A program made the position numbers and the translations under genes. Positions 23,533 to 62,751 of a stretch of 64,000 nt of DNA are shown piece by piece. A model generated the notes under the pieces. It saw only the letters and a program-made list of their open reading frames with translations, did no database searches and was not told the origin of the DNA. The DNA is from Agrococcus pavilionensis RW1 (GTDB taxonomy: Bacteria; Actinomycetota; Actinomycetes; Actinomycetales; Microbacteriaceae): contig NZ_ASHR01000028.1 of assembly GCF_000400485.1 (NCBI RefSeq), positions 62,001 through 126,000 of the forward strand, written 5' to 3'. Position 1 is the first letter of the stretch. The number at the start of each line of letters is the position of its first letter.

Positions 23533-24666
23533 TCAGCGGGCCCGAGCCTCCCGCACGACCTCGACGAGCCGCGCGGTGAGCGGGTGCTCCGCCTCGAGCC
23601 CCGTGACCCGCGCGACGAACGCCGCCGGATCGAGCGAGCGGAGCAGCTCCTGGAGCTCGAGCGCCTGCTCGTCGCCCGGGGCGTCGAAGCGCAGCGCGGT
23701 GCCGAACGCCGCGACGAGCGCGTCGGCGGACTCGCCGCGGTCGACGAGCTGCGCGGCCGGCTCGACGAAGCGCTCGTGGCGCGACAGCTTGCGCAGCGGC
23801 TGCCGGCCGATGCGCTCGCACGTGTCGGGCAGCGCCGGGTTCTCGAACCGCGCGATCGCCCGGGCGACGTAGGCGGCGTGCTCGGCCTCGTCGAAGCCGT
23901 GCTTCGCCACGAGCAGCCTCGAGGTGTCGGTGAGCGCCGCCTCGACGGCCGCGCGGATCTCGGGCAGCTCGAGCGCGGCCGCGATCGTGCCGGCGCCGGC
24001 GACCCAGCCCGCGTAGGCGGTCGTCGCGTGGCCGGTGTTGACCGTGAAGAGCTTGCGCTCGATGTAGGGCCCGAGATCGTCGACGAAGTGCGCGTCGCCG
24101 ATCTCGGGGGCCGCGATCCCGCCGCGCTCGAAGGCCGCGCGATCGATCGACCACTCGAAGAAGTCCTCCACGACGACGTCGAGGCCGTGCGGGTCCTGCG
24201 GCGGGATGATCCGGTCGACGGCCGTGTTCGCGAAGACCGCCCGGTCGGCGAGCTCCGGCGCGCCGTCGAGCACGTGCTCGCGGAGCGTGTCGGAGGCGCC
24301 GATGGCGTTCTCGCACGCCATCACCACGACCGGCGCGCCCTCGCGCTGCTCGAGCCCGGCGCGGATCGCGGGCGCGATGAAGCGCATGGCGCTCGGCCCG
24401 ACGGCGCACGTGACGACGTCCGCCTCCGCGACCGCGCGCGCCGCCGCTTCCGGGTCGGCGCTCGAGTCGATGCCGGAGAAGCCCGTGACCGTGTGGATCC
24501 GGGCCTCGGGCCCGACCTCCCGCACCCGGTACGCATCCGCCGACTGCAGCATCCCGATGAGCTCGGCGTTCACGTCGACGAACGTGACCTCGAAGCCCGC
24601 GCGATGCAGGATGAGTCCGACGAAGCCGCGGCCGATGTTGCCCGCGCCGAAGTGGACGGCGCGCAT
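23533..24666 (-). CDS. mtlD: Mannitol-1-phosphate 5-dehydrogenase
   Basis: 377 aa, normal length. Oxidises mannitol-1-phosphate from the PTS to fructose-6-phosphate with NAD. Rossmann start MRAVHFGAGNIGRGFVG, then ACENAIGASDTL, FANTAVDRIIPP and the catalytic-lysine block ERKLFTVNTGHATTAYAGW. ATG at 24666 shares a base with the mtlF stop (TGATG). Last gene of the HPr-mtlA-mtlF-mtlD set. Confidence 0.96.
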   Translation of the reverse strand: MRAVHFGAGNIGRGFVGLILHRAGFEVTFVDVNAELIGMLQSADAYRVREVGPEARIHTVTGFSGIDSSADPEAAARAVAEADVVTCAVGPSAMRFIAPAIRAGLEQREGAPVVVMACENAIGASDTLREHVLDGAPELADRAVFANTAVDRIIPPQDPHGLDVVVEDFFEWSIDRAAFERGGIAAPEIGDAHFVDDLGPYIERKLFTVNTGHATTAYAGWVAGAGTIAAALELPEIRAAVEAALTDTSRLLVAKHGFDEAEHAAYVARAIARFENPALPDTCERIGRQPLRKLSRHERFVEPAAQLVDRGESADALVAAFGTALRFDAPGDEQALELQELLRSLDPAAFVARVTGLEAEHPLTARLVEVVREARAR

Positions 24667-25097
24667 CACTCGTTGACGTCGCCGAGCAGTTCGAGGATCG
24701 CCGCCGCGTCGGGCGCCGCCTCGAGCTTCGCGACGTCGTCCTCCTCCGAGAAGACGATCGCGATCTTCGAGAGGATCTCGAGGTGGCCGCCGTCCTTGCC
24801 GGCGATGCCGATGACGAACTTCACCGGGTTGCCGTCCCAGTCGAGCGGCGTCTCGTAGCGCGCGACCGAGAGCGCCGAGGCGAGGATCGAGTCCTTCGAC
24901 TCGTTCGTGCCGTGCGGGATCGCCAGCAGGTTGCCCATGTAGGTCGACACGCTCGCCTCGCGAGCGCGCATCGCGTCGGCGTAGTCGGGCGTGACGGCGC
25001 CGGCGGCGACGAGCATGTCCGCCGCCTCCTGGATCGCCTCGTCCTTCGTGGTCGCTCGCGGGCTCGTGGTGATCTGCTCGAGGGTCAGGACGGGCAT
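24666..25097 (-). CDS. mtlF: PTS mannitol-specific EIIA component
   Basis: 143 aa. Accepts phosphate from HPr on H62 in LAIPHGTNESKD and passes it to EIIB. Fold typical of the mannitol/fructose EIIA family (AIQEAADMLVAAGAVTPDYADAM). Free-standing, as in Gram-positive bacteria. Sits 8 bp after mtlA. Confidence 0.95.
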   Translation of the reverse strand: MPVLTLEQITTSPRATTKDEAIQEAADMLVAAGAVTPDYADAMRAREASVSTYMGNLLAIPHGTNESKDSILASALSVARYETPLDWDGNPVKFVIGIAGKDGGHLEILSKIAIVFSEEDDVAKLEAAPDAAAILELLGDVNE

Positions 25098-25105
25098 GGG
25101 TCTCC

Positions 25106-26701
25106 TCACGCGGTCGTGTCGCTGCCGTCGCGATTGGCGCGCTGCACCATCTCGACGACCTCGTCGTACTTGGGGCTGTTCATGAAGTTGTCGACCGACA
25201 CGTGCGTCGCGCCGGGCGTGCGCTGGCGGGCGCGCTCGGTGAGCTCCTGCTGCGTGATGACGAGGTCGACGTCGGTCCCGAGCGCCGCGATCGCGACGTT
25301 CTTGACGTCGACGCCCTCGATGCCCGCCTTCTTGATCTTGTTGCGCAGCACGCTCGCGCCCATCGCGCTCGAGCCCATCCCCGCGTCGCACGCGAAGACG
25401 ATCGAGCGGATCGGCTCGGCCGAGACCGCGGCCCGGCCGTCGGTCGCGCTCGGGGCAGCGGCGGCCGAGCCGGACGCGGCGCCCGCGGCGGCGAGCCCGG
25501 CGAGGGCCTCGGAGGACTTGCCCTTGTTGGCCTGCGTCTGCGCCACGGCGGCGCCGAGCGCGTCGTCGCCGGCCGCCTCGCGCTCGAGGTCGCGCTTGCG
25601 GCTCAGCCGCAGGATGAGCGCGCCGACCGCGAAGGACACCGCCGCCGAGAGCACGACCGAGAGCACGACGCCGAGGTAGCTGTCGGTCGCCGTCTGCGCG
25701 ACGATCGCGAAGATCGAGCCCGGCGACGCGGGCGCCCGCAGGCCGGTCGCGAAGAGCGCGTTGGTCGCCACGCCCGTCATGCCGCCGGCGATCACCGCGA
25801 GCAGCAGCGCCGGCTTCATGAGCACGTAGGGGAAGTAGACCTCGTGGATGCCGCCGAGGAACTGGATGACGGCGGCGCCCGGCGCGGTCGCGCGCGCGGC
25901 GCCGACGCCGAAGAACGTGAAGGCGAGCAGCACGCCGAGGCCCGGGCCCGGGTTCGCCTCGAGCAGGAACAGGATCGACTTGCCCTGCTCCGCCGCCTCG
26001 GAGATGCCGAGCGGGGTGAGCACGCCGTGGTTGATGGCGTTGTTGAGGAAGAAGACCTTCGCGGGCTCGATGAGGATCGAGGCGAGCGGCAGCAGGCCGG
26101 TCGAGACGAGCCAGCCGACGGCACCGCCGATGACGTCCATGATCCAGTTGACGACCGGTGCGAGCAGGTAGAAGCCGGCGATGCCGAGGATGAACGCGAC
26201 GATGCCCGCCGAGAACATGTTGACGAGCATCTCGAAGCCCGCCTTGACCTTGCCCTCCCAGAGCGCGTCGAGCTTCTTCATCACCCACGCGGCGAGCGGG
26301 CCCATGATCATCGCGCCGATGAACATGTGCACCTGGCCGAGCTCCCCCTGCCCCTCGGCGGGCGGGTTGGCGGCGTTGAACTGCGCGATGAGCCAGTCGG
26401 AGCCGGCGATCACGCCGAGCGTCGCGAAGGCGCCGACCACGGCACCGCGCGCCTCGTAGACCATCCGACCGCCGGTCGCGGCGATGAGGATGGGGAGGAG
26501 GTAGTGGATCGTCGGCCCCACGATCGACGCGAGCCCCTCGTTGGGGAACGGGCCGTCGGCGATGAAGAGGGCCGTGACGATGCCCCAAGCGATGAGCGCG
26601 GGGATGTTGGGCATGATCATGCCCGAGAGGAACGTGCCGAACCGCTGGACGCGGACGCGGGCGCCGCTGCCGGACGCCGTGGCTGCTGTGGTGGTGGTCA
26701 T
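25106..26701 (-). CDS. mtlA: PTS mannitol-specific EIICB component
   Basis: 531 aa. N-terminal EIIC (residues about 20-350) with 6-8 membrane segments and the substrate motif GGIHEVYFPYVLMKP. A flexible Ala/Gly/Ser-rich linker (about 370-425) joins the C-terminal EIIB, whose phosphocysteine is C438 in IVFACDAGMGSSAMGAS. Imports mannitol as mannitol-1-phosphate. No EIIA is fused; mtlF supplies it. ATG at 26701 follows the HPr gene by 41 bp. Confidence 0.96.
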   Translation of the reverse strand: MTTTTAATASGSGARVRVQRFGTFLSGMIMPNIPALIAWGIVTALFIADGPFPNEGLASIVGPTIHYLLPILIAATGGRMVYEARGAVVGAFATLGVIAGSDWLIAQFNAANPPAEGQGELGQVHMFIGAMIMGPLAAWVMKKLDALWEGKVKAGFEMLVNMFSAGIVAFILGIAGFYLLAPVVNWIMDVIGGAVGWLVSTGLLPLASILIEPAKVFFLNNAINHGVLTPLGISEAAEQGKSILFLLEANPGPGLGVLLAFTFFGVGAARATAPGAAVIQFLGGIHEVYFPYVLMKPALLLAVIAGGMTGVATNALFATGLRAPASPGSIFAIVAQTATDSYLGVVLSVVLSAAVSFAVGALILRLSRKRDLEREAAGDDALGAAVAQTQANKGKSSEALAGLAAAGAASGSAAAAPSATDGRAAVSAEPIRSIVFACDAGMGSSAMGASVLRNKIKKAGIEGVDVKNVAIAALGTDVDLVITQQELTERARQRTPGATHVSVDNFMNSPKYDEVVEMVQRANRDGSDTTA

Positions 26702-26742
26702 CTCGGCTCCTGTGCTCGCTGGCGGATCAGGGCTCGCGGCGC

Positions 26743-26997
26743 CTACACGTCGTGGTCGGTCGAGAGCAGCTGCTCGAGCTCGTCGAGCGCCGCCTCGTCG
26801 TCGGAGGCGATCGTCACGGTGTCGCCCTTGTTCACGCCGAGCGAGATCACCGACAGGATGCTCGCCGCGTTCACCTGCTTGTCGCCGACGGCGACGGTGA
26901 CGGGGGCGGATGCCTTGGCGGCGGCCTGGGCGAACAGGGAGGCGGGCCGCGCGTGGAGGCCGTGCGACGATTCGACGGTGACGGTGCGCTCGGCCAT
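26743..26997 (-). CDS. ptsH: Phosphocarrier protein HPr
   Basis: 84 aa. H15 in GLHARPAS is the EI-phosphorylated residue; S46 in NAASILSVISLGV is the site that HPr kinase modifies in Firmicutes. Its place at the head of the mannitol operon suggests it is either the general HPr or a dedicated one; EI is not in this window. Confidence 0.93.
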   Translation of the reverse strand: MAERTVTVESSHGLHARPASLFAQAAAKASAPVTVAVGDKQVNAASILSVISLGVNKGDTVTIASDDEAALDELEQLLSTDHDV

Positions 26998-27083
26998 GCT
27001 GCTCCTCTGACTCGGTCCGGCGGGACGCCGGGTGGCGCTCACGGTACCACCGGTTCCCCGACCGTCGGCAGGATCCCGCGGCG

Positions 27084-27848
27084 TCAGCGGGGGCGGCCGC
27101 CGCGCAGCCGCGCCCAGGCCGCGAGCACCGCGACGGCGCTCCAGCCGACGAGCGCCGCGGCGGCCAGTCGCAGCTCGGCGGCACCGATCGGGGCGAGCAC
27201 GGTGCCGCCCGCGACGATGCCCTCGGAGACCGCGCGGAGCGCCTGGCCGGGCAGCAGCCAGCGGACGCCGTCGAGGCCCGCGAGGGCGAGCGCGCCGGCG
27301 ATGCCCGGCTCGACGAGCAGCGGCAGCGCGAGACCGACCGCGAGCACGAGCAGCGGCGAGCGGGAGGCGTGCGCGAGCGCGGCCATCCACACGGCCCACG
27401 CGGCCGCGGTGCCGAGGTGGATGCTCACGACGACGAGCGCCGCATCGAGGCTCGGGCGCACGAGCGCCGCCGCGCCCGCGAGCGCCGCCGCGCTCGAGAG
27501 CGCCGCGAGGAGGAGCGCCGGCACGAGCGTCGACCCGATCGACAGCGCGAGCCGGTGCGCCGGTCTCGGGTGGGCGAGCGCGGCATGCATCCAGCTGCCG
27601 TCGCGGTAGGGCGCGGCGACGCCCAGGCTCGCGAGCACGGCGATCGCGGGCTGCGCGGCTGAGCCGCGCGCGATGACGACGGTCGCGGCCTCGAGGTCGG
27701 TCGAGGCCGCGGCGTGCGCGAGGAGCGCGCCGGTCGCGAGCCCGCCGAGGCCGGATCCGACGAGCGCGAGCGTCAGGGGGATCCACGGTCGCCGGCCCAG
27801 CAGCATCGTCGCGAGCTCGGCCCTCGCTTCGCGCAGCACGGCGCTCAC
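27084..27848 (-). CDS. ABC-2-type permease, last gene of the bacteriocin-like operon
   Basis: 254 aa with about six hydrophobic segments (IPLTLALVGSGLGGLATGALL, VPALLLAALSSAAALAGAAAL, LLVLAVGLALPLLVEPGIAGAL) and no ATPase motif. Start GTG at 27848 overlaps the stop of the upstream ATPase gene as GTGA. Best read as the membrane partner of that ATPase, for export or self-protection. Sequence is Ala/Leu-rich, so family assignment rests mainly on topology and context. Confidence 0.7.
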   Translation of the reverse strand: MSAVLREARAELATMLLGRRPWIPLTLALVGSGLGGLATGALLAHAAASTDLEAATVVIARGSAAQPAIAVLASLGVAAPYRDGSWMHAALAHPRPAHRLALSIGSTLVPALLLAALSSAAALAGAAALVRPSLDAALVVVSIHLGTAAAWAVWMAALAHASRSPLLVLAVGLALPLLVEPGIAGALALAGLDGVRWLLPGQALRAVSEGIVAGGTVLAPIGAAELRLAAAALVGWSAVAVLAAWARLRGGRPR

Positions 27849-28735
27849 GGGCCGCCCTCGATCGCCGCGGCGAACGCGGCGCTCAGCGAGAGGCGCCGAG
27901 GGGAGAGCTCCGTCACGAGCAGTCCCTCCCGTGCCGCGATGCGCGCGATGCGCTCAGGGTCGAGCCCCCGCACCGCGAGCGCGCCCGACGCGCGGCCGTG
28001 CACGACGGCGCTCGCCGCGCGCAGCGCTCCCGCGAAGCGGTCGCCCTCCGTCGACCGCACGATGACCACGGGCGCGGCGTGCGCGCGCAGGAACGCATCC
28101 ACGTCGCCCTCGAACCTCGTGCGTCCGCCGTGGAGGCACACGAGCCGGTCGAGGAGCGGCTCGATCTCGTCGAGCGCGTGCGCCGAGAGCAGCACGGCCC
28201 CGCCGCTGTCGGCGTGCGCGCGCAGGAGTGCCGAGAGCCACCGCCGGCCGGCCGGGTCGAGGCCGTCGAAGGGCTCGTCGAGCACGAGGATGCGCGGTGA
28301 GGGCAGCAGCGCTCCCGCGATCGCGAGGCGGCGGCGCATGCCGAGCGAGAACGAGCGCACCGGGCCGCGCGCCTCCGCGAGTCCCACCGCCTGCAGCGTG
28401 CGGTCGATCGCGTCGCGCGCGACGCCCGCGCGCAGGGCGAGCGGTACGAGGTGCGACCGAGCGCTCGCACCGGGCGCGGCTCCCAGCGCATCGGCGCAGA
28501 AGCCGACCGAGCGCAAGGGCGTGCCGAGCGACCGGTAGCGGGCGCCCGCGACGCGAGCGATGCCCTCGTGACGCTCGAGGCCGAGGAGGCAGCGGAGGGT
28601 CGTCGTCTTGCCGGCGCCGTTGACGCCGACGAAGCCCGTCACGCTGCCCCACGGCACGAGGAAGGAGACGCCGTCGAGCACGGTGCGACCGCCGTAGCCG
28701 CGGCGCAGCGCCGCGACCTCGATCGCCGGCCTCAT
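27845..28735 (-). CDS. ABC transporter ATPase (BcrA/CcmA-like)
   Basis: 296 aa. Walker A GVNGAGKTTTLR around residues 37-48, signature FSLGMRRRLAIAGALL around 129-144, Walker B RILVLDEPFDGLDPAG and the H-loop serine/histidine in LLSAHALDEIEP. The variant signature LGMRRR and a C-terminal accessory part of about 80 residues are typical of bacitracin/lantibiotic-export ATPases. ATGA overlap with the upstream ATPase and GTGA overlap with the downstream permease indicate strict co-translation. Confidence 0.9.
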   Translation of the reverse strand: MRPAIEVAALRRGYGGRTVLDGVSFLVPWGSVTGFVGVNGAGKTTTLRCLLGLERHEGIARVAGARYRSLGTPLRSVGFCADALGAAPGASARSHLVPLALRAGVARDAIDRTLQAVGLAEARGPVRSFSLGMRRRLAIAGALLPSPRILVLDEPFDGLDPAGRRWLSALLRAHADSGGAVLLSAHALDEIEPLLDRLVCLHGGRTRFEGDVDAFLRAHAAPVVIVRSTEGDRFAGALRAASAVVHGRASGALAVRGLDPERIARIAAREGLLVTELSPRRLSLSAAFAAAIEGGP

Positions 28736-29340
28736 GCGGGCTCCATGCGCACGACACCGGTGTCGGCGGCGAGTGCGCGCTCGCCGTGGTCGACGAGCAC
28801 GACGAGCCGCGTCGACGCCCAGCGCTCGACGCTCCCCGCGAGCCGCGCGGCGGCCTCGTCGTCGAGGCCGAGGAACGGCTCGTCGAGGAGCATGACGCCG
28901 GCCTCGCGAAGGGTCGTGAGCACGACCCACGCACTGCGCCGCTGGCCGGTGGAGAGGGCGTCGGCGCGCATCGCGAGGCAGCCCTCGAGCCCGGCGGCTG
29001 CGAGCGCCGCGATCGCGCGATCGGCGCCGACGCCCGCCGCGCGACCGAACAGGCGCGCGTGCCGCTCGAGGCTCACGGCCGGCAGCAGCGCGGGCTCGCT
29101 GCGCGTCACGGTGCGTCCAGCGCGCGCGAGCGGGTCGCTCGCGAGCCTGCCCGCCACGAGCACGCGGCCGCGCGGCGGCCGCGCGGCGCCCGCGAGCAGC
29201 TCGACGACCGTGCTCTTCCCGATCCCGTTGCGACCGACGAGGCGCAGCAGTCGCGGCGCGCGCCCCTCGAGGTCGGGGACGCGGACGCGCGAGCGGCCGA
29301 CCGGCACGATGCCGACGCCCTCCATGAGCACGCTCGTCAC
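28732..29340 (-). CDS. Second ABC transporter ATPase of the bacteriocin-like operon
   Basis: 202 aa, short. Walker A GRNGIGKSTVVELLAG, signature LSTGQRRSAWVVL, Walker B VMLLDEPFLGLDD; a recognisable H-loop reads VVLVDHGERA. The N-terminus lacks the usual A-loop strand, making it a compact ATPase. Start GTG at 29340 overlaps the upstream permease stop as GTGA; an ATG 15 bases later is the alternative. It probably powers the 374-aa polytopic protein encoded just before it. Confidence 0.85.
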   Translation of the reverse strand: MTSVLMEGVGIVPVGRSRVRVPDLEGRAPRLLRLVGRNGIGKSTVVELLAGAARPPRGRVLVAGRLASDPLARAGRTVTRSEPALLPAVSLERHARLFGRAAGVGADRAIAALAAAGLEGCLAMRADALSTGQRRSAWVVLTTLREAGVMLLDEPFLGLDDEAAARLAGSVERWASTRLVVLVDHGERALAADTGVVRMEPA

Positions 29341-30461
29341 CGCCGCCTGCCGAGCGTCGCCGCGACGGCGACCGCGACGAGCGCGGTGCCCGGTAGGAGC
29401 AGCCACGCCGCGGCGAGGCCGCCGGTCGCGACGAGGCACGGCGCGGCGAGGAGCATGGCGAAGGCCAGCGCGCGCACCGCGAGGCGCTCGGTGCCGGGCT
29501 CGAGCAGCACGACGGTCGACGCCGCCACCGCGACGTACCAGCCGATCGCCGCGGCCTCCCACGACCGCTCGGCGCCGCTCCCCGCGAGCGCCGCGAGCGC
29601 ACTCGAGAGCGGCGCCGCCGCGAAGCCCACCGCGAGCACGGCTATCGCGAGGGTCGCCGTGACCGCCGCCCTCGGCGCGCCGCACGACACGAGCTCGCGC
29701 GCGAGCCGCTCGAGCGGCCGCGCATCCTGCGCCAGGAGCTGCGTGGCGATCCAGAGCGCGGGGGCCGTCGCGATCGCGAGCACGAGCGGCTGCGACGCGG
29801 CGATCGCAGCCCAGGCCGCCGCGAGCTCCGCGCTCGGCGCCGCGCGCTCGAGCGAGCCGGCCGCGATCGCGGCCCAGGCCGCGACGCCGGCCGCGAGCAC
29901 AGCGCCGAGCCGCGCCCCCGCGCCGCGGATTAGCGGCCGTCCCCCGCCGATGGCAGCGACCGCCATCGCCCCGGCGATCCCCGCCGCTGCCGCCGCGAGC
30001 ACCGCGACCGCGCGGCCGTCGCCCGCGGTCGACAGCGAGACCGCCGCAGCGCCCGCCACGACGCTCGAGCTCAGCAGCAGCGGAGCGACGGCCGCGAGCG
30101 CTCCCCACCCTCGCGCGCCGCCGAGGTCGAGGGTGCGCAGCAGTCCGGCGACGGCGTCGAGCGACACGACGAGCGGCGGCGTCGCGCCGACCGCGAGGCG
30201 CGAGGCGGGCCCGAGCGCGAGCGCCGCGAGCAGCACCGGCACCGCGACCTCGGGCGACAGGCGCACGGCGAGGTGCACGGCGGCGGCGGCGACCGCCACG
30301 ACGCCGAGGAGCGCGCTGAGCGACGCCACGAGCAGCGGCAGCCGCAGCGGGCTCGAGAGCGCGGCGAGCATCCATCCCGGCAGCACGTGGTGCGCGACGA
30401 CCCAGCCGACCTCGGCGGCAGCCGCCGTCGCCCGCCGAGCCCTCGCGCGCCCGTCGCTCAT
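29337..30461 (-). CDS. Large polytopic membrane protein, likely ABC permease partner
   Basis: 374 aa, about ten hydrophobic segments (PLLVASLSALLGVVAVAAAAVHLA, VAVPVLLAALALGPASRLAVG, VAVLAAAAAGIAGAMAVAAIGG, and WLLLPGTALVAVAVAATLG at the end). No catalytic motif. ATG at 30461 overlaps the upstream stop (ATGA) and its stop overlaps the 202-aa ATPase start (GTGA). Position and topology suggest the membrane half of an ABC exporter for the peptide at 32034-32312. Very Ala-rich, no family name can be given. Confidence 0.65.
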   Translation of the reverse strand: MSDGRARARRATAAAAEVGWVVAHHVLPGWMLAALSSPLRLPLLVASLSALLGVVAVAAAAVHLAVRLSPEVAVPVLLAALALGPASRLAVGATPPLVVSLDAVAGLLRTLDLGGARGWGALAAVAPLLLSSSVVAGAAAVSLSTAGDGRAVAVLAAAAAGIAGAMAVAAIGGGRPLIRGAGARLGAVLAAGVAAWAAIAAGSLERAAPSAELAAAWAAIAASQPLVLAIATAPALWIATQLLAQDARPLERLARELVSCGAPRAAVTATLAIAVLAVGFAAAPLSSALAALAGSGAERSWEAAAIGWYVAVAASTVVLLEPGTERLAVRALAFAMLLAAPCLVATGGLAAAWLLLPGTALVAVAVAATLGRRR

Positions 30462-30874
30462 GGCTCGCGCGAGCGACCCGCGGCTCGATGCCCGGAGCCG
30501 ACGAGGTGGTAGGCGACGGCGAGCATCGAGACGGCGAGCAGCGGCCACCCGAACAGGTGCGCGGGCCAGGTGCGCACGAGCCCGACGAGGGTCATCGCGA
30601 CGAGCGCCGTCACGGCCGATCCCGCGCCGGCGAGCGCGAAGCGGAAGCGCCCGTCGACCAGCGCGGGCACGCTCGTCGCGAGCGCGCAGGCGGAGGCCGC
30701 GAGCGTCAGCCACGTGCTCGCCACCCGGAGCTCCGGCGCGACGTCGGTCGCCGCCGCCGCGCTCAGCACGCCCGTGACGAGCAGCAGCTGCGCGAGCGCG
30801 ATCCCGCGGACCCCGGTGCGCGAGAGCGGCAGCGCGATGCCGAGCTCGGGGATGCGGAAGGTCGCGCGCGTCAC
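30458..30874 (-). CDS. Small four-helix membrane protein of the bacteriocin-like operon
   Basis: 138 aa with four hydrophobic segments (GIALAQLLLVTGVLSAA, TWLTLAASACALATSVPAL, FALAGAGSAVTALVAMTLVGLV, FGWPLLAVSMLAVAYHLVG) and a basic C-terminus ending HRAAGRSREP. I do not recognise a family. Start GTG at 30874 overlaps the upstream gene by GTGA. A small basic membrane protein in such a cluster is a candidate immunity factor, but known circular-bacteriocin immunity proteins are usually only about 50-60 aa. Confidence 0.65.
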   Translation of the reverse strand: MTRATFRIPELGIALPLSRTGVRGIALAQLLLVTGVLSAAAATDVAPELRVASTWLTLAASACALATSVPALVDGRFRFALAGAGSAVTALVAMTLVGLVRTWPAHLFGWPLLAVSMLAVAYHLVGSGHRAAGRSREP

Positions 30875-31431
30875 CCGAGGCACAGCAGCACCCCCGTCGC
30901 CACTGCCGCCGCGAGCGAGCGCGCGTAGTCCCGCGCCGAGCGGCGTGCCGCGGGGAAGGCGAGCGGCGCGACCGCGGCGACCGCGATCGCCGCGACCCAC
31001 AGCTGCCAGCCGCGCGGCACGGCGGCGACGCCCATCGCGAGCGCGGCGACCTGCTGGCCGAGCACGAGCACCGCGAGCACGAGGCCCGCGACGCCGAGCC
31101 GCACCCTGCCCGCGCCGCGCGCGGGTCGCAGCGCGACCGGCCCGAGCCAGCGCTCGAGCAGCGTCGCGATCACGGCCGCGACGATGAGGACGAGCAGGTG
31201 CAGCGCGATGGCGCTCACCGCTCCGACCGTCGTCGCGGCAGCCGCGAGCGCCGCATCGCCGAGCGCGTCCGCAGCCTCCTGCCCTGCAGCCGCGGCGACG
31301 TCGACGAACATCGGCAGGCGCACGAGCAGCAGCGCGCTCACGAGCGCGATCACGACGCACCAGACCACCGCCGAGGTCGTCGACCGCTCGAGCGCGGGGC
31401 GAGCGACCCCCGCCCGGATGGGCGCATCCAT
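30871..31431 (-). CDS. Membrane protein with four to five helices (Yip1-like topology)
   Basis: 186 aa. Hydrophobic segments at about residues 20-43 (VVWCVVIALVSALLLVRLP), 67-93 (AIALHLLVLIVAAVIATLL), 110-137, 142-160 and 171-186. Topology resembles Yip1-type proteins; no conserved catalytic residues. ATG at 31431 has AGGGAGGAAG close upstream, the one non-overlapping junction (12-bp gap) in the operon, so this gene may be re-initiated strongly. Possible part of the maturation or secretion complex; function inferred from context only. Confidence 0.65.
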   Translation of the reverse strand: MDAPIRAGVARPALERSTTSAVVWCVVIALVSALLLVRLPMFVDVAAAAGQEAADALGDAALAAAATTVGAVSAIALHLLVLIVAAVIATLLERWLGPVALRPARGAGRVRLGVAGLVLAVLVLGQQVAALAMGVAAVPRGWQLWVAAIAVAAVAPLAFPAARRSARDYARSLAAAVATGVLLCLG

Positions 31432-31443
31432 GGCTTCCTCCCT

Positions 31444-32037
31444 TCACGTGCCGCGAGCGACGCAGAGCGATTCCGTGACGGCCGCGAGCACGACGAGCAG
31501 CGCGGCGACGGCCGTGAGGCGCAGACCGTAGCCGAGCCCGATCGCGTACGCAGCGGTCGGGCGTCGACCTGTGCACAGCCATGCCGACGCGACGTGCGCG
31601 ACGGGCAGCAGGCCCGCTGTCGCCGCGAGCAGCACCGCGGCGACCTCGAAGACGATGTACGGAGCGATGCGCGCGAGCGTCTCCACCGCTCCGAGGGCCG
31701 CGACGACCGAAGCGGCCGAGACGCCGATGCCGATCCCGATGAGCGAAATGCCCACGAGGGTGAGCGACCCGAGCACCGGCGCGCCCGACGCGAGCAGCGC
31801 GATGGCTGCGAGGTTGCTCGCGGCGATGCCGAGCGCGCTGCCGTCGGCGGCGAGCACGGCCGAGTCGATCGATCCGCCGGCGACGGCCGCCGCGTTGGCG
31901 GCAGCGATGTCACCGGAAGCCGCAGCGGTGGCCGCCGAGGCCGCGCCCAGCAGACCGGCAGCGAGCACGGCCGACGACGCGAGCGCGAGCCGGAGCGCGC
32001 CCCGCTCGCTCGCGGCGCCGACCGTGCTCCGGCTCAT
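31444..32037 (-). CDS. SpoIIM/DUF95-like membrane protein beside the bacteriocin-like peptide
   Basis: 197 aa with about five hydrophobic segments. The stretch NLAAIALLASGAPVLGSL...GISLIGIGIGVS, then IAPYIVFEVAAVLLAATAGLL, follows the DUF95 pattern (asparagine-led helix, Gly-rich helix, then PHGxxE-xPA-llAgxaG), with the family histidine replaced by tyrosine. DUF95 proteins are a hallmark of circular-bacteriocin loci, where they are needed for maturation or secretion. Start overlaps the peptide gene stop as ATGA. The family match is by eye and should be tested with a profile search. Confidence 0.65.
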   Translation of the reverse strand: MSRSTVGAASERGALRLALASSAVLAAGLLGAASAATAAASGDIAAANAAAVAGGSIDSAVLAADGSALGIAASNLAAIALLASGAPVLGSLTLVGISLIGIGIGVSAASVVAALGAVETLARIAPYIVFEVAAVLLAATAGLLPVAHVASAWLCTGRRPTAAYAIGLGYGLRLTAVAALLVVLAAVTESLCVARGT

Positions 32038-32312
32038 CGGATGGCCAGCGTGCGGAGCTTCCGCTTCAAGTACCACGTGACCGTGGAGATGACGGCCCCG
32101 AGGAGGCCGCCCGAGAAGAGCGCGGCGACGACGGCGAGGGCCGCACCGCCGATCTCGATGGCCGCGACGACCTGCGCGGCCGCGATGCCGGACAGCCCGA
32201 AGCTGGCCATGAGCCACGACAGCGACACGCCTGCCGCCGCCAGGCCGACGACCGTCACGGCCGCCGATGCCGTCCACACGGCCGCACGGCCGCGCTTCGA
32301 TTCGATCTGCAT
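32034..32312 (-). CDS. Candidate circular bacteriocin prepeptide (AS-48-like)
   Basis: 92 aa. A basic N-terminus (MQIESKRGRAAVW) and one hydrophobic helix make a leader of about 34 residues. From M35 the sequence (MASFGLSGIAAAQVV, EIGG, SGGLLGAV, YLKRKLRTLAIR) parallels mature AS-48 (MAKEFGIPAAVAGTVL, EAGG, SGGLSLLA, YLKKEIKKK). Predicted core M35-R92 is 58 aa with five basic and one acidic residue; circular bacteriocins are 58-70 aa and cationic. ATG at 32312 has a very strong ribosome site (GGAGGAAGGAG, six bases away). Coupled by ATGA to the DUF95-like gene. The C-terminal arginine is unusual, as known members end in a hydrophobic residue. Confidence 0.72.
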   Translation of the reverse strand: MQIESKRGRAAVWTASAAVTVVGLAAAGVSLSWLMASFGLSGIAAAQVVAAIEIGGAALAVVAALFSGGLLGAVISTVTWYLKRKLRTLAIR

Positions 32313-32330
32313 GAGTTGACTCCTTCCTCC

Positions 32331-32391
32331 CACCCGTTCGCCGGGTGCTCGTGCCGCGCGGCACGAGACCGTGGGCGTCGCCCGCGACGCC
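32331..32391 (-). promoter_or_regulatory. Three adjacent inverted repeats in the leader of the bacteriocin-like operon
   Basis: Inverted repeats at 32331-32347 (cacccg-ttcgc-cgggtg), 32348-32367 (perfect 20-bp palindrome ctcgtgccgcgcggcacgag) and 32374-32391 (ggcgtcg-cccg-cgacgcc) fill almost the whole 80-bp gap between the XRE gene and the peptide start. Could be an operator, terminator/attenuator, or RNA leader placed directly before the ribosome site. Confidence 0.65.
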
Positions 32392-32392
32392 A

Positions 32393-32608
32393 TCACTCGC
32401 CCTCCTCCCGCAGCCGCGCCGCGATGGCCGCCGCCAAGCGCGCCACGAGCGACGCGGGCGGCTCGATCGAGCCGTCCTCCACGCCGACGACCGTCGCGAC
32501 CGGCGTGCCGGCGCGATCGGCGAGCGCGCGCTGCGTCATGCCGGCGTGCGAGCGCAGGGATGCGAGTGAGGTCCCGATGCGCGATTCGACCGCCATGTCG
32601 GAAAGCAT
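32393..32608 (-). CDS. Small XRE-family regulator upstream of the bacteriocin-like operon
   Basis: 71 aa, a stand-alone helix-turn-helix: ESRIGTSLASLRSHAGMTQRALADRAGTPVATVVGVEDGSIEPPASLVARL. The motif MTQRALADRAGTPVATVVGVE is a typical XRE/Cro HTH. Either ATG (32608 or 32596) may be used; neither has a clear ribosome site, so translation may be leaderless. Same strand and 80 bp before the peptide gene, so it is the obvious candidate for its control. Confidence 0.8.
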   Translation of the reverse strand: MLSDMAVESRIGTSLASLRSHAGMTQRALADRAGTPVATVVGVEDGSIEPPASLVARLAAAIAARLREEGE

Positions 32609-32690
32609 GCCAGGTTTTCAACGGTCGCGCAACCACTTCTCGACAACGGGTAGCCGATCTTGCCGCTGCATGTCGAACAACCATCGAATA

Positions 32691-32724
32691 CCGTGATCGG
32701 TGTTCGGCACTCGTGCGGATAATG
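32691..32724 (+). promoter_or_regulatory. Candidate promoter and operator of the XRE-ImmA pair
   Basis: GATAAT (32719-32724) fits a -10 on the plus strand. An inverted repeat ACCG-TGAT-CGGT (32691-32702) lies where the -35 should be and could be the regulator's own operator. Weak evidence, position-based. Confidence 0.4.
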
Positions 32725-32751
32725 GGGTGACGCAGGAAGCGGGGTCGAGCG

Positions 32752-33228
32752 ATGTCCATCCACCTTCGCGGCGCGAGCGCGAGCGAGCGCGCGCGCTACG
32801 CCGAGCTCGTGCGACCCGCCCGCGTGCGCCGCGGCCTCAGCCAGAAGGCGCTCGCGACGCTCGCGGAGGTCGACCGCACGACCGTGAGCAACATCGAGCG
32901 CGGTGCCGGCGCTCCGCAGGAGGACGTCCTCCGACGGCTGTTCGCAGCGCTGGGCCTCGCCACCGATGCGCAGCCGCGCGACCCCGAGGTCGAGCTCTGG
33001 GTCGCCGTGATGTCCGAGCTGCTCTCGAGCGTGCCCGCCGATCGCAGGCACCTCGCCGCCGACGCCGCGATCGCGACGCTCGCCGCGCACGTGCGGGCGG
33101 GCGAGGTGTCAGCGGTCGGCCCTACCCTCACCGCCATCCACGACGAGGGCGGACTCGAGGAGCGCGACATCCATGGACTTGCGGCGCGGCGCGGCATCGC
33201 TCGAAGGGACGAGCCCCACGCTGAGTGA
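32752..33228 (+). CDS. XRE-family transcriptional regulator, partner of an ImmA/IrrE-like protease
   Basis: 158 aa. Residues about 15-75 form an XRE HTH (VRRGLSQKALATLAEVDRTT, then VSNIERGAGAPQEDVLRRLFAALGLA). The C-terminal half is a helical domain of unknown role (ADAAIATLAAHVRAG). Its end overlaps the start of the ImmA/IrrE-type gene by 56 bp. By analogy with ImmR-ImmA, it may repress the divergent operon or itself until cleaved by the protease. Confidence 0.82.
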   Translation: MSIHLRGASASERARYAELVRPARVRRGLSQKALATLAEVDRTTVSNIERGAGAPQEDVLRRLFAALGLATDAQPRDPEVELWVAVMSELLSSVPADRRHLAADAAIATLAAHVRAGEVSAVGPTLTAIHDEGGLEERDIHGLAARRGIARRDEPHAE

Positions 33229-33592
33229 GCTCGTCCGGCTGTGCGCGCAAGCGGGGCTCGAGGTGCACGTCGCAGCGCTCCCGGCCGGCTGCCTCGGCGC
33301 CTACGAGCACGAGCGCGAGCGCATCCTGCTCGCCCGCGGCCTCACGCCCGTCGAGCAGCGCTGCGTGCTGGCCCACGAGCTCGGGCACGCGCTGCTCTCG
33401 CACGTCGGCTCGTCGGCAGCCGACGAGCGCGCCGCGGAGCGGTTCGCCGCGCGCCTGCTCATCGATCCGCGGGCGCTCGCCGAGGCGTGCAGGTGGGCGC
33501 GCGACGACGCCGAGCTCGCGGACGAGCTGGGCGTCACGATCGACATCGTGCGGGACTACCGGGAGCATCGCGGCGTGCGCCGCGCCGCGTGA
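33173..33592 (+). CDS. ImmA/IrrE family metallopeptidase-like protein
   Basis: 139 aa. The zinc-protease motif HELGHALLSH lies around residues 68-77, preceded by VEQRCVLA, with the third-ligand region AERFAARLLIDP: the family order (IrrE/ImmA, domain DUF955). ATG at 33173 has GAGGAG about ten bases upstream and overlaps the XRE gene. Such proteases cleave XRE repressors after a signal, linking stress to derepression. Short for the family, which is often 130-180 aa when stand-alone. Confidence 0.85.
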   Translation: MDLRRGAASLEGTSPTLSELVRLCAQAGLEVHVAALPAGCLGAYEHERERILLARGLTPVEQRCVLAHELGHALLSHVGSSAADERAAERFAARLLIDPRALAEACRWARDDAELADELGVTIDIVRDYREHRGVRRAA

Positions 33593-33601
33593 GCCGCCGC
33601 G

Positions 33602-60636: not shown

Positions 60637-62751
60637 TCACTCTCCCTTGCTCTTCTGGACGATCTCGTCCGAGACGGCCTTCGGCACCTCGGCGTAGGTC
60701 GAGAACTCCATCGAGTAGACGGCACGGCCGGACGTCTTCGACCGCAGGTCGCCGACGTAGCCGAACATCTCCGACAGCGGCACGAGGGCCTTGACGACCT
60801 TCACGCCCTGGGCGTCCTCCATCGACTGGATCTGCCCGCGACGCGAGTTCAGATCGCCGATGACGTCGCCCATGTACTCCTCGGGCGTGCGCACCTCGAC
60901 CGCCATGAGCGGCTCGAGGAGCACCGGCTGCGCCTTGCGCGCGGCCTCCTTGTACGCCATCGAGCCGGCGATCTTGAACGCCATCTCCGACGAGTCGACG
61001 TCGTGCGCGGCGCCGTCGAGCAGCGTCGCCTTCACGCCGACCGTCGGGAAGCCGGCGAGCACGCCGACCTGCATCGCGTCCTGCATGCCCGCGTCGACCG
61101 AGGGGATGTACTCGCGGGGCACGCGACCGCCGGTGACGGCGTTCACGAACTCGTACGTCTGCTCCGCGGTGATCTCGAGCGGCTCGAGCTTGATCTGCAC
61201 CTTGGCGAACTGGCCGGAGCCACCCGTCTGCTTCTTGTGGGTGTAGTCGTACTTGTCGACCGTGCCCTTGATCGTCTCGCGGTAGGCCACCTGGGGCTTG
61301 CCCACGTTGGCCTCGACCTTGAACTCGCGCTTCATGCGGTCGACGAGGATGTCGAGGTGCAGCTCGCCCATGCCCTTGATGACGGTCTGGCCCGTCTCGG
61401 GGTTGTTCTCGGTGCGGAAGGTCGGGTCCTCCTCGGCGAGCTTCTGGATGGCCGTGGAGAGCTTCTCCTGGTCGGCCTTCGTCTTCGGCTCGATCGCGAC
61501 CTCGATCACGGGCGCGGGGAACGTCATCGACTCGAGCACGACCTGGTTCGACGGGTCGCTCAGCGTGTCGCCGGTCGTCGTGTCCTTGAGGCCGATCACC
61601 GCGTAGATGTGGCCCGCGGTCATCGAGTCGACCGGGTTCTCCTTGTTGGCGTGCATCTGGAAGATCTTCCCGATGCGCTCCTTCTTGCCCTTCGTGGAGT
61701 TCGCGACTGCGGCGCCCGACTCCACGTGGCCCGAGTAGACGCGCACGTAGGTGAGGCGGCCGAAGAACGGGTGCACGGCGACCTTGAACGCGAGCGCGGC
61801 GAACGGCTCGTCGCGGTCGGCGTGGCGCTCGATGACGACCTCCTCGTCGCGCACGTCGCGGCCGGGGATGGCCGGCACGTCGACGGGCGAGGGGAGGTAG
61901 TCGACGACCGCGTCGAGCATCGGCTGCACGCCGCGGTTCTTGAACGCCGAGCCGCACAGCACGGGGTAGAGCTCGGAGTTGATCGTCATCTTGCGGATGG
62001 CGGCCTTGATCTCGGCGACCGAGATCTCCTCGCCCTCGAAGAACTTCTCCATGAGCGCGTCGTCGCTCTCGGCGATCGTCTCGATGAGGGCTGCGCGGTA
62101 CTCCTCGGCCTTCTCCTTGAGGTCGGCCGGGATCTCCTCGACGGCGTACTCGGCGCCCATCTTCACGTCACCCTTGGCGTCGCCGCGCCAGGTCTTCGCG
62201 TTCATCTCGACCAGGTCGACGATGCCCTCGAAGCTGCTCTCCGCGCCGATCGGCAGCTGGATGACGAGCGGGCGCGCGCCGAGGCGGTTCACGATCGTGT
62301 CGACCGTGAAGTAGAAGTCGGCACCGAGCTTGTCCATCTTGTTGACGAAGCAGATGCGCGGCACGTCGTACTTGTCGGCCTGGCGCCACACCGTCTCGGA
62401 CTGGGGCTCGACGCCCTCCTTGCCGTCGAAGACGGCGACCGCGCCGTCGAGCACGCGGAGCGAGCGCTCGACCTCGACCGTGAAGTCGACGTGACCGGGG
62501 GTGTCGATGATGTTGATCTGGTTCTTGTCCCAGAAGCAGGTCACGGCGGCCGACGTGATCGTGATGCCGCGCTCCTGCTCCTGCTCCATCCAGTCGGTGG
62601 TCGCTCCGCCGTCGTGCGTCTCGCCCATCTTGTGGTTGACGCCCGTGTAGAACAGGATGCGCTCGGTCGTGGTGGTCTTGCCGGCATCGATGTGGGCCAT
62701 GATGCCGATGTTGCGGACCTTGTTCAGGTCGGTGAGCACGTCCTGTGCCAC
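60637..62751 (-). CDS. fusA: Elongation factor G
   Basis: 704 aa. G1 [43 protein letters not shown], and the domain IV tip [17 protein letters not shown] region are present. Catalyses translocation. GTG start at 62751. Confidence 0.99.

Follow-up and report, generated by a model that had tools for sequence, protein, structure and literature searches.

A chromosomal cassette of Agrococcus that probably encodes a remote relative of the circularin A/uberolysin-type circular bacteriocins

Gene layout and conservation of the operon

Circular bacteriocins are stable antimicrobial peptides, and nearly all of those studied come from Bacillota. A candidate locus of this kind was analysed in a stretch of 64,000 nucleotides from Agrococcus pavilionensis RW1, hereafter the window, which corresponds to positions 62001–126000 of contig C28 (NZ_ASHR01000028.1) in a genome of 2.88 Mb. 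On its minus strand, eight open reading frames (ORFs) run head to tail from 32312 to 27084, in the order of a 92-residue precursor peptide, a SpoIIM/DUF95 membrane protein, three further membrane proteins (P3, P4, and P5), two ATP-binding cassette (ABC) ATPases (P6 and P7), and another membrane protein (P8) (Table 1). Adjacent genes share 4-bp ATGA or GTGA start/stop overlaps at six of the seven junctions, the remaining one, between the SpoIIM and P3 genes, being a 12-bp gap. The original prediction had described these ORFs and junctions as a circular-bacteriocin operon, and both the coordinates and the junction types hold when checked in the window. The extent that it gave to the unit is too small, because an upstream gene for a helix-turn-helix (HTH) protein and two divergent genes, for an XRE-type regulator and an M78 metalloprotease, also belong to it.

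Table 1. Features of the cassette, in window coordinates
Feature	Coordinates	Strand	Basis
Whole cassette, from the map stop codon to the HPr promoter region	27060..33601	.	Empty vs occupied sites; lower end approximate
Membrane protein P8, 254 aa, ~5 hydrophobic segments	27084..27848	-	Topology estimate
ABC ATPase P7, 296 aa	27845..28735	-	PF00005, E 1.3e-19
ABC ATPase P6, 202 aa	28732..29340	-	PF00005, E 8.8e-16
Membrane protein P5, 374 aa, ~10 hydrophobic segments, fast evolving	29337..30461	-	Position, hydropathy
Small membrane protein P4, 138 aa, ~4 hydrophobic segments	30458..30874	-	29-86% identity, four pairs compared
Membrane protein P3, 186 aa, ~5 hydrophobic segments	30871..31431	-	Same-place homologues in four genera
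SpoIIM/DUF95 membrane protein, 197 aa, ~6 hydrophobic segments	31444..32037	-	PF01944, E 5.7e-6
Precursor peptide, 92 aa (predicted 33-aa leader and 59-aa core)	32034..32312	-	TIGR03651 sub-threshold, PF09221 relatives, purifying selection
Predicted core, codons 34-92 (Leu34 to Arg92)	32037..32213	-	Alignment to NKR-5-3B and AS-48
HTH protein, 71 aa, 80 bp upstream of peptide gene	32393..32608	-	PF13560, E 2.3e-9; in 7/7 Agrococcus relatives compared
Candidate operator: divergent promoter region containing TTCGAC/GTCGAA half-sites	32609..32751	.	Half-site count vs shuffles
XRE-type regulator, 158 aa, divergent from operon	32752..33228	+	PF13560, E 1.3e-11
M78 (ImmA/IrrE-like) metalloprotease with HELGH, 139 aa	33173..33592	+	PF06114, 51.2 bits, cut-off 22

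Genomes, contigs, and loci are cited below by working labels (G, C, and L numbers). In all seven Agrococcus relatives compared, the genes after that of the peptide are, in unchanged order, those of SpoIIM, P3, P6, P7, and P8. BLAST matches to P4 and P5 were obtained in five and two of the seven, respectively, and in the other five the place of P5 is filled by a long ORF with about 8–10 predicted hydrophobic segments. Ratios of nonsynonymous to synonymous substitution rates (dN/dS) were compared for nine genes against the two nearest relatives, in which the overlapping junctions are preserved. The peptide gene has the lowest value in both comparisons, 0.04 against G015 (other genes 0.23–0.58) and 0.12 against G017 (other genes 0.23–0.47). 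The operon is therefore real and under selection, as indicated by the conserved gene order and the constraint at the codon level.

The peptide family and its predicted core

The affiliation of the precursor is seen in its relatives. The cut-off of PF09221, the Pfam model of circular bacteriocins (23.6 bits), is exceeded by the peptides of L013 (30.8 bits), L018 (30.0), and L023 (26.8) scanned singly, by which a wholly new peptide family is ruled out. An alignment of nine family members (A1), three of which are nearly identical, was also scanned. All nine match TIGR03651, the circularin A/uberolysin model, up to E 1 (best 2e-6), and six match PF09221 up to the same E (best 3.5e-7). None of ten shuffled peptides, five derived from the window peptide and five from that of L013, matches either model up to E 1.

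The A1 profile was compared with the PDB up to E 10, and the only matches are the circular bacteriocins enterocin NKR-5-3B (E 0.0023) and AS-48 (two sequences, E 0.018 and 0.019). Both alignments begin at the start of the core, with residue 1 of NKR-5-3B on residue 34 and residue 3 of AS-48 on profile position 36. A leader of 33 residues and a core from residue 34 are therefore predicted. Among 11 aligned members, the last residue of the leader is Trp (Tyr in two), and the first of the core is Leu, Val, or Ile. Both a profile match and a conserved core, whose joint absence had been named beforehand as evidence against a circular-bacteriocin locus, are found in the family.

The predicted core of the window peptide is devoid of Cys, contains a KRKLR patch, and is hydrophobic and basic (grand average of hydropathy 1.26, predicted isoelectric point 11.0, charge +3.8). 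Its cyclic form would have an average mass of 5911.06 Da (5907.41 Da monoisotopic), 18 Da less than that of the linear form. The same core is predicted in Agrococcus lahaulensis DSM 17612, whose peptide is 99% identical to that of the window.

The SpoIIM/DUF95 protein

The assignment of the 197-residue protein to DUF95 is borne out by its match to PF01944 (Table 1) and by its homologues. Of ten SpoIIM candidates scanned, five pass the PF01944 cut-off of 26.9 bits (L011, 30.8; L013, 31.3; L015, 30.6; L016, 29.3; L024, 31.9), four match below it (the window, 26.8; L018, 25.2; L025, 24.2; L023, 21.9), and the tenth, an ORF neighbouring the peptide gene of L031, matches no Pfam family up to E 0.1. 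When aligned by hhalign with the SpoIIM protein of L051, an independent PF09221 cluster in which that protein scores 59.7 bits, a probability of 71% (E 3.7e-5) was obtained. Across 11 SpoIIM homologues there are 14 invariant columns, two Glu among them.

The SpoIIM gene adjoins the peptide gene in the loci of Agrococcus, Mycetocola, Arthrobacter, and Pseudarthrobacter. In passages of two publications this gene is called class-defining for circular bacteriocins (PMC13289728, PMC11580447). For leucocyclicin Q, an account in PMC7132975 has it that, on removal of the DUF95 gene, the mature peptide stays inside the cell.

Other membrane proteins and ABC ATPases

Homologues of P3 occupy the same position in the same four genera. 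P3 is therefore a core part of the lineage, as it recurs in Mycetocola, Arthrobacter, and Pseudarthrobacter, and it is a candidate immunity protein or exporter subunit. P4 evolves fast and is a candidate for immunity. No Pfam family is matched over a cut-off by P3, P4, P5, or P8, and none up to E 1 by P5 and P8; two homologues of P8 likewise have none up to E 0.1. The best NCBIfam match of P7 is the lantibiotic-protection type TIGR03740 (121.3 bits, below the cut-off of 309.75). By position and hydropathy, P5 and P8 are taken as the putative permeases of P6 and P7, respectively.

The presence of two ATPases had been put forward in the original prediction as the mark of a possibly distinct type. 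This does not stand, because AS-48 (as-48EFGH) and carnocyclin A (cclEGHI) have accessory ABC systems, which are said, in the part of PMC6131525 concerned, to raise production and immunity.

Relatives outside the genus

In Mycetocola, Arthrobacter, and Pseudarthrobacter, the peptide, SpoIIM, P3, and ATPase genes occur in the same order. The wider distribution was assessed in two samples of 396 genomes each, one drawn evenly from the order and one from the phylum. The family profile matches five genomes of the order-level sample, namely two Agrococcus, G468, G439, and G048. The G468 locus contains peptide, SpoIIM-like, and both ATPase genes, and with these partners it is counted as a true relative. 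In G439, which belongs to another family of the order, locus L031 has a remote peptide relative (E 1.3e-7) with an ATPase match nearby; the neighbouring ORF of 203 residues is the one without a Pfam match and is not counted as SpoIIM, and the locus is at most a possible, weakly indicated relative. The match in G048 (L032, E 8.8e-4) is regarded as due to chance, no bacteriocin-type partner adjoining it.

In the phylum-level sample, PF09221 matches four genomes, three of them over the cut-off and the fourth, G635, below it (23.1 bits). PF09221 peptides over the cut-off are present at L051, L052, and L053, in three further actinobacterial genomes (one family, two genera). L051, which served as the independent yardstick, has a peptide of 46.6 bits in a cluster with a large membrane protein, an ATPase, SpoIIM, and a small membrane protein; L052 and L053 have similar ORFs for the large membrane protein and the ATPase and in the SpoIIM position. 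The peptide of L013 gave no match to plasmids in a tblastn search.

The insertion site in Agrococcus

The peptide is present in eight of the 24 Agrococcus genomes (G000–G023, E ≤ 0.001), always at one site. The interval between adk and the gene for HPr, both confirmed by Pfam, is 7429–7515 bp in these eight and 891–1028 bp in 13 of the 16 others. The empty site in the 13 genomes holds only a gene that is taken to be map and a short spacer, whereas about 6.6 kb lies between map and the HPr gene in the occupied genomes. As to the other three peptide-free genomes, adk and the HPr gene are split over contigs in G003, and neither was matched in G010 and G016. Four of the 16 (G003, G005, G010, and G016) are less than 90% complete.

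The close pair of G022 (occupied) and G009 (empty) illustrates the difference. Their flanks align along 3160 bp (96.7% identity) and 1789 bp (93.3%), and G022 has 6576 bp, with clean ends, that are without counterpart in G009. On the marker tree, some branches of which are poorly supported, occupied and empty genomes are interleaved. Therefore, repeated losses or transfers at a single site are likely. No tRNA or tmRNA gene lies in the window between 24000 and 36500. None of the 20 direct-repeat families listed, of 41 between 26700 and 34000, pairs the cassette ends, and integrases and transposases were not searched for.

Directly downstream of the cassette, at 24666–27000 of the window, are the HPr gene and a gene resembling a phosphotransferase system (PTS) permease, presumably of the mannitol type. 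In G007, contig C3 carries two inverted copies of the locus (L016 and L017), which lie about 46 kb from each other and show 100% identity along 18992 bp. They are counted as one, because they probably represent an assembly duplication (listed contamination of G007, 8%).

The regulatory genes

The XRE gene is co-inherited with the peptide gene, being found (E ≤ 1e-10) in all eight Agrococcus genomes with the peptide and in none of the 16 without it. In all eight occupied loci it stands beside an M78 gene with the HELGH motif, and in the window the two genes overlap. A genome-wide search for M78 proteases covered 15 of the 24 Agrococcus genomes, and the matches in the genus outside the cassette are weak and lie inside ORFs of about 500 residues, apart from one in the peptide-free G013 (L033:7337-9315). 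There, a 42% identical M78 protease adjoins a gene for a resolvase-family recombinase, without a bacteriocin cassette.

Pairs of XRE and M78 proteins, such as ImmR/ImmA and DdrO/IrrE, are known switches that operate by proteolytic removal of the repressor, and in these the XRE gene likewise overlaps the gene of an HExxH protease. Unlike them, the pair described here is tied to a bacteriocin operon. No paper pairing ImmA/IrrE with a bacteriocin was found in the literature searched, which consisted of open-licence papers with supplements excluded.

Between the HTH and XRE genes lies the candidate operator. The half-sites TTCGAC and GTCGAA occur in 18 copies in eight orthologous divergent regions, as compared with a mean of 1.2 in shuffled sequences; the region of the window has one exact copy. 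This enrichment is suggestive of an operator signal, and the test is a weak one because the motif was chosen post hoc, on inspection of the alignment, and the eight sequences are related. TTCGAC half-sites are paired 11 bp apart in five of the eight loci, and an inverted GTCGAA is present near the HTH gene in six.

A part of the M78 protease in maturation may also be envisaged, in which it would act on the precursor, as a leader peptidase or a component of ring closure, instead of or besides acting on the XRE repressor. If true, and considering the Arg at the predicted junction, the system would be a circular bacteriocin equipped with a maturation enzyme reserved for it. The chance of this is considered slight. 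A tblastn search with the protease, up to E 0.01, found nothing in the stretches analysed of the loci of Arthrobacter, Mycetocola, Pseudarthrobacter, G468, and G439, and a regulatory function is therefore more likely than one in maturation.

Interpretation of the locus

The reading preferred here, held with good confidence, is that the chromosomal cassette of Agrococcus directs production of a circularin A/uberolysin-type bacteriocin; the original prediction had proposed a circular bacteriocin for the operon. It is supported by the relatives matching PF09221, the PDB matches to NKR-5-3B and AS-48, the SpoIIM/DUF95 partner, the two ABC ATPases, the composition of the core, the gene order shared with other genera, the low dN/dS of the peptide gene, the co-inherited XRE gene, and the discrete cassette with its empty sites. 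In such a system the 92-residue precursor would be cleaved between Trp33 and Leu34, shedding the leader of about 33 residues, and the cationic, hydrophobic core of 59 residues (Leu34–Arg92) would be joined head to tail. Export of the ring may, if leucocyclicin Q is a guide, fall to the SpoIIM protein together with an ABC ATPase. P5/P6 and P7/P8 probably each form an ABC exporter, the latter perhaps in the role of the accessory production and immunity systems of AS-48 and carnocyclin A, and P3 and P4 are candidates for immunity or for exporter subunits. The released peptide would permeabilise the membranes of related Gram-positive bacteria. Control of the operon may be exerted through the divergent promoter by the XRE repressor with the M78 protease, and by the 71-residue HTH protein.

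A number of observations weigh against this reading. The expectation that profile searches would place the 92-residue peptide among the circular-bacteriocin families holds for three relatives and fails for the window peptide, which is below both cut-offs. Its TIGR03651 match has an E of 0.027 (14.8 bits, cut-off 30.7), a Pfam scan gave no PF09221 match up to E 1, and its top NCBIfam match (E 0.0033) is to an unrelated model. The peptides of ten relatives, scanned one by one, all stay short of the TIGR03651 cut-off, and those of L025 (21.2 bits) and L019 (16.9 bits) are below that of PF09221. Taken by itself, then, the window peptide is weak evidence, and the case is carried by the family. When A1 was compared by hhalign with a single classical peptide of PF09221, no significant match resulted (probability 0.5%, E 0.11), although the alignment is at the same core start. 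The SpoIIM protein of the window is 0.1 bit short of the PF01944 cut-off. AlphaFold gave, at low confidence, a single long helix for the core and not a saposin-like bundle (predicted local distance difference test score 70.7, predicted template modelling score 0.32); this model, built from only six sequences, is taken as uninformative. Behind the membrane genes of the Mycetocola operon there is a match to one ATPase, and no second was found in that operon. No leader protease or cyclase was identified in the locus; the cleavage and ring-closing enzymes of circular bacteriocins are, to our knowledge, unknown, and there is no known cyclase to look for.

The C-terminal residue of the core (codon 32037–32039) also belongs among these points, as it is Arg in three of the 11 aligned members, namely the window peptide and those of its two nearest relatives, and Ala in the remaining eight. 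According to the relevant part of PMC8659200, the published groups of circular bacteriocins end mostly in Trp or Tyr, and two groups in Ala. The Arg of this clade is thus unusual for circular bacteriocins, for which an aromatic or Ala end is usual, if not absolute, and the junction Arg is either tolerated or trimmed off.

It is with this residue that a different reading begins, in which the product is a secreted and processed linear peptide, a bacteriocin or a signal, of circular-bacteriocin ancestry that is not cyclised. The three Arg ends, the scores of the window peptide below the curated cut-offs, and the want of any cyclase to look for are all compatible with it. In contrast, the Ala ends of the other eight members, the class-defining SpoIIM gene that follows the peptide gene in four genera, and the alignment of the core start with residue 1 of NKR-5-3B argue for a ring, and a linear product is considered unlikely. 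The peptide might otherwise serve the ABC transporters as a small structural subunit in the membrane, in which case the operon would be an export or resistance system of an ordinary sort. It is strongly conserved and hydrophobic, it is translationally coupled to transporter genes, its partners are mostly membrane proteins, and P7 resembles a lantibiotic-protection ATPase. Against it stand the matches of relatives to PF09221 and the shuffles, none of the ten of which matches either bacteriocin model; in Mycetocola, moreover, the approximately 75 residues that precede the core (with the start codon chosen) are little conserved while the core itself is kept. This reading is given only a very slight chance.

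That the locus is a decayed or silent bacteriocin locus, retained by hitchhiking, would agree with its patchy presence in a third of the Agrococcus genomes (8/24), interspersed on the marker tree. It is barely credible in view of the eight open genes, the peptide dN/dS of 0.04–0.12, and the overlaps kept in the nearest relatives.

Comparison with known systems

The locus resembles those of NKR-5-3B, AS-48, circularin A, and uberolysin in the register of the core, in its hydrophobic, cationic, and cysteine-free composition, and in having a SpoIIM/DUF95 partner and an ATPase in a coupled operon. It differs from them in its remote sequence (best PDB match, E 0.0023) and in the C-terminal Arg of the window's clade. 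The gene order also differs, being peptide-SpoIIM-P3-P4-P5-ATPase-ATPase-P8 here and peptide-large membrane protein (620 residues)-ATPase-SpoIIM-small membrane protein in the classical-looking L051. As with as-48EFGH and cclEGHI, to which P5–P8 are likened through the description given in part of PMC6131525, a second ABC system is present beside the minimal cluster; unlike in those, it is inside the same coupled operon.

As to the actinobacterial host, reports of circular bacteriocins in actinobacteria already exist. In the passages concerned, Xin 2020 places two of 6,928 circular-bacteriocin precursors in Actinobacteria (PMC8534725), the pumilarin paper mentions five circular-bacteriocin clusters in propionibacteria (PMC5695211), and an AS-48-like cluster of Arthrobacter sp. 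APC 3897 comprises a peptide, a DUF95 gene, and several ATP-binding transport genes (PMC10456417). The precursor of the last is, by the same source, 71.3% identical to AS-48, whereas that of the window is linked to AS-48 only by a profile match (E 0.018). Beyond Bacillota, circular bacteriocins are rare but not new. Agrococcus is named for leaderless bacteriocins in a passage of PMC11580447, and in the portion of PMC11679952 concerned the genus and circular bacteriocins occur unrelated to each other. Within the literature searched, no report of this peptide family was found for Microbacteriaceae or Agrococcus, nor were the branch, the cassette, or the link between the regulator-protease pair and a bacteriocin found in print.

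The locus is accordingly viewed as a remote actinobacterial branch of a known kind of circular bacteriocin, whose cassette includes a regulatory module and occupies one fixed site. As a separate actinobacterial branch with a compact operon and its own repressor-protease module, it would provide a comparative set for determining which genes are essential in such systems, and close genomes with and without the cassette, such as G022 and G009, would allow direct tests of activity and immunity.

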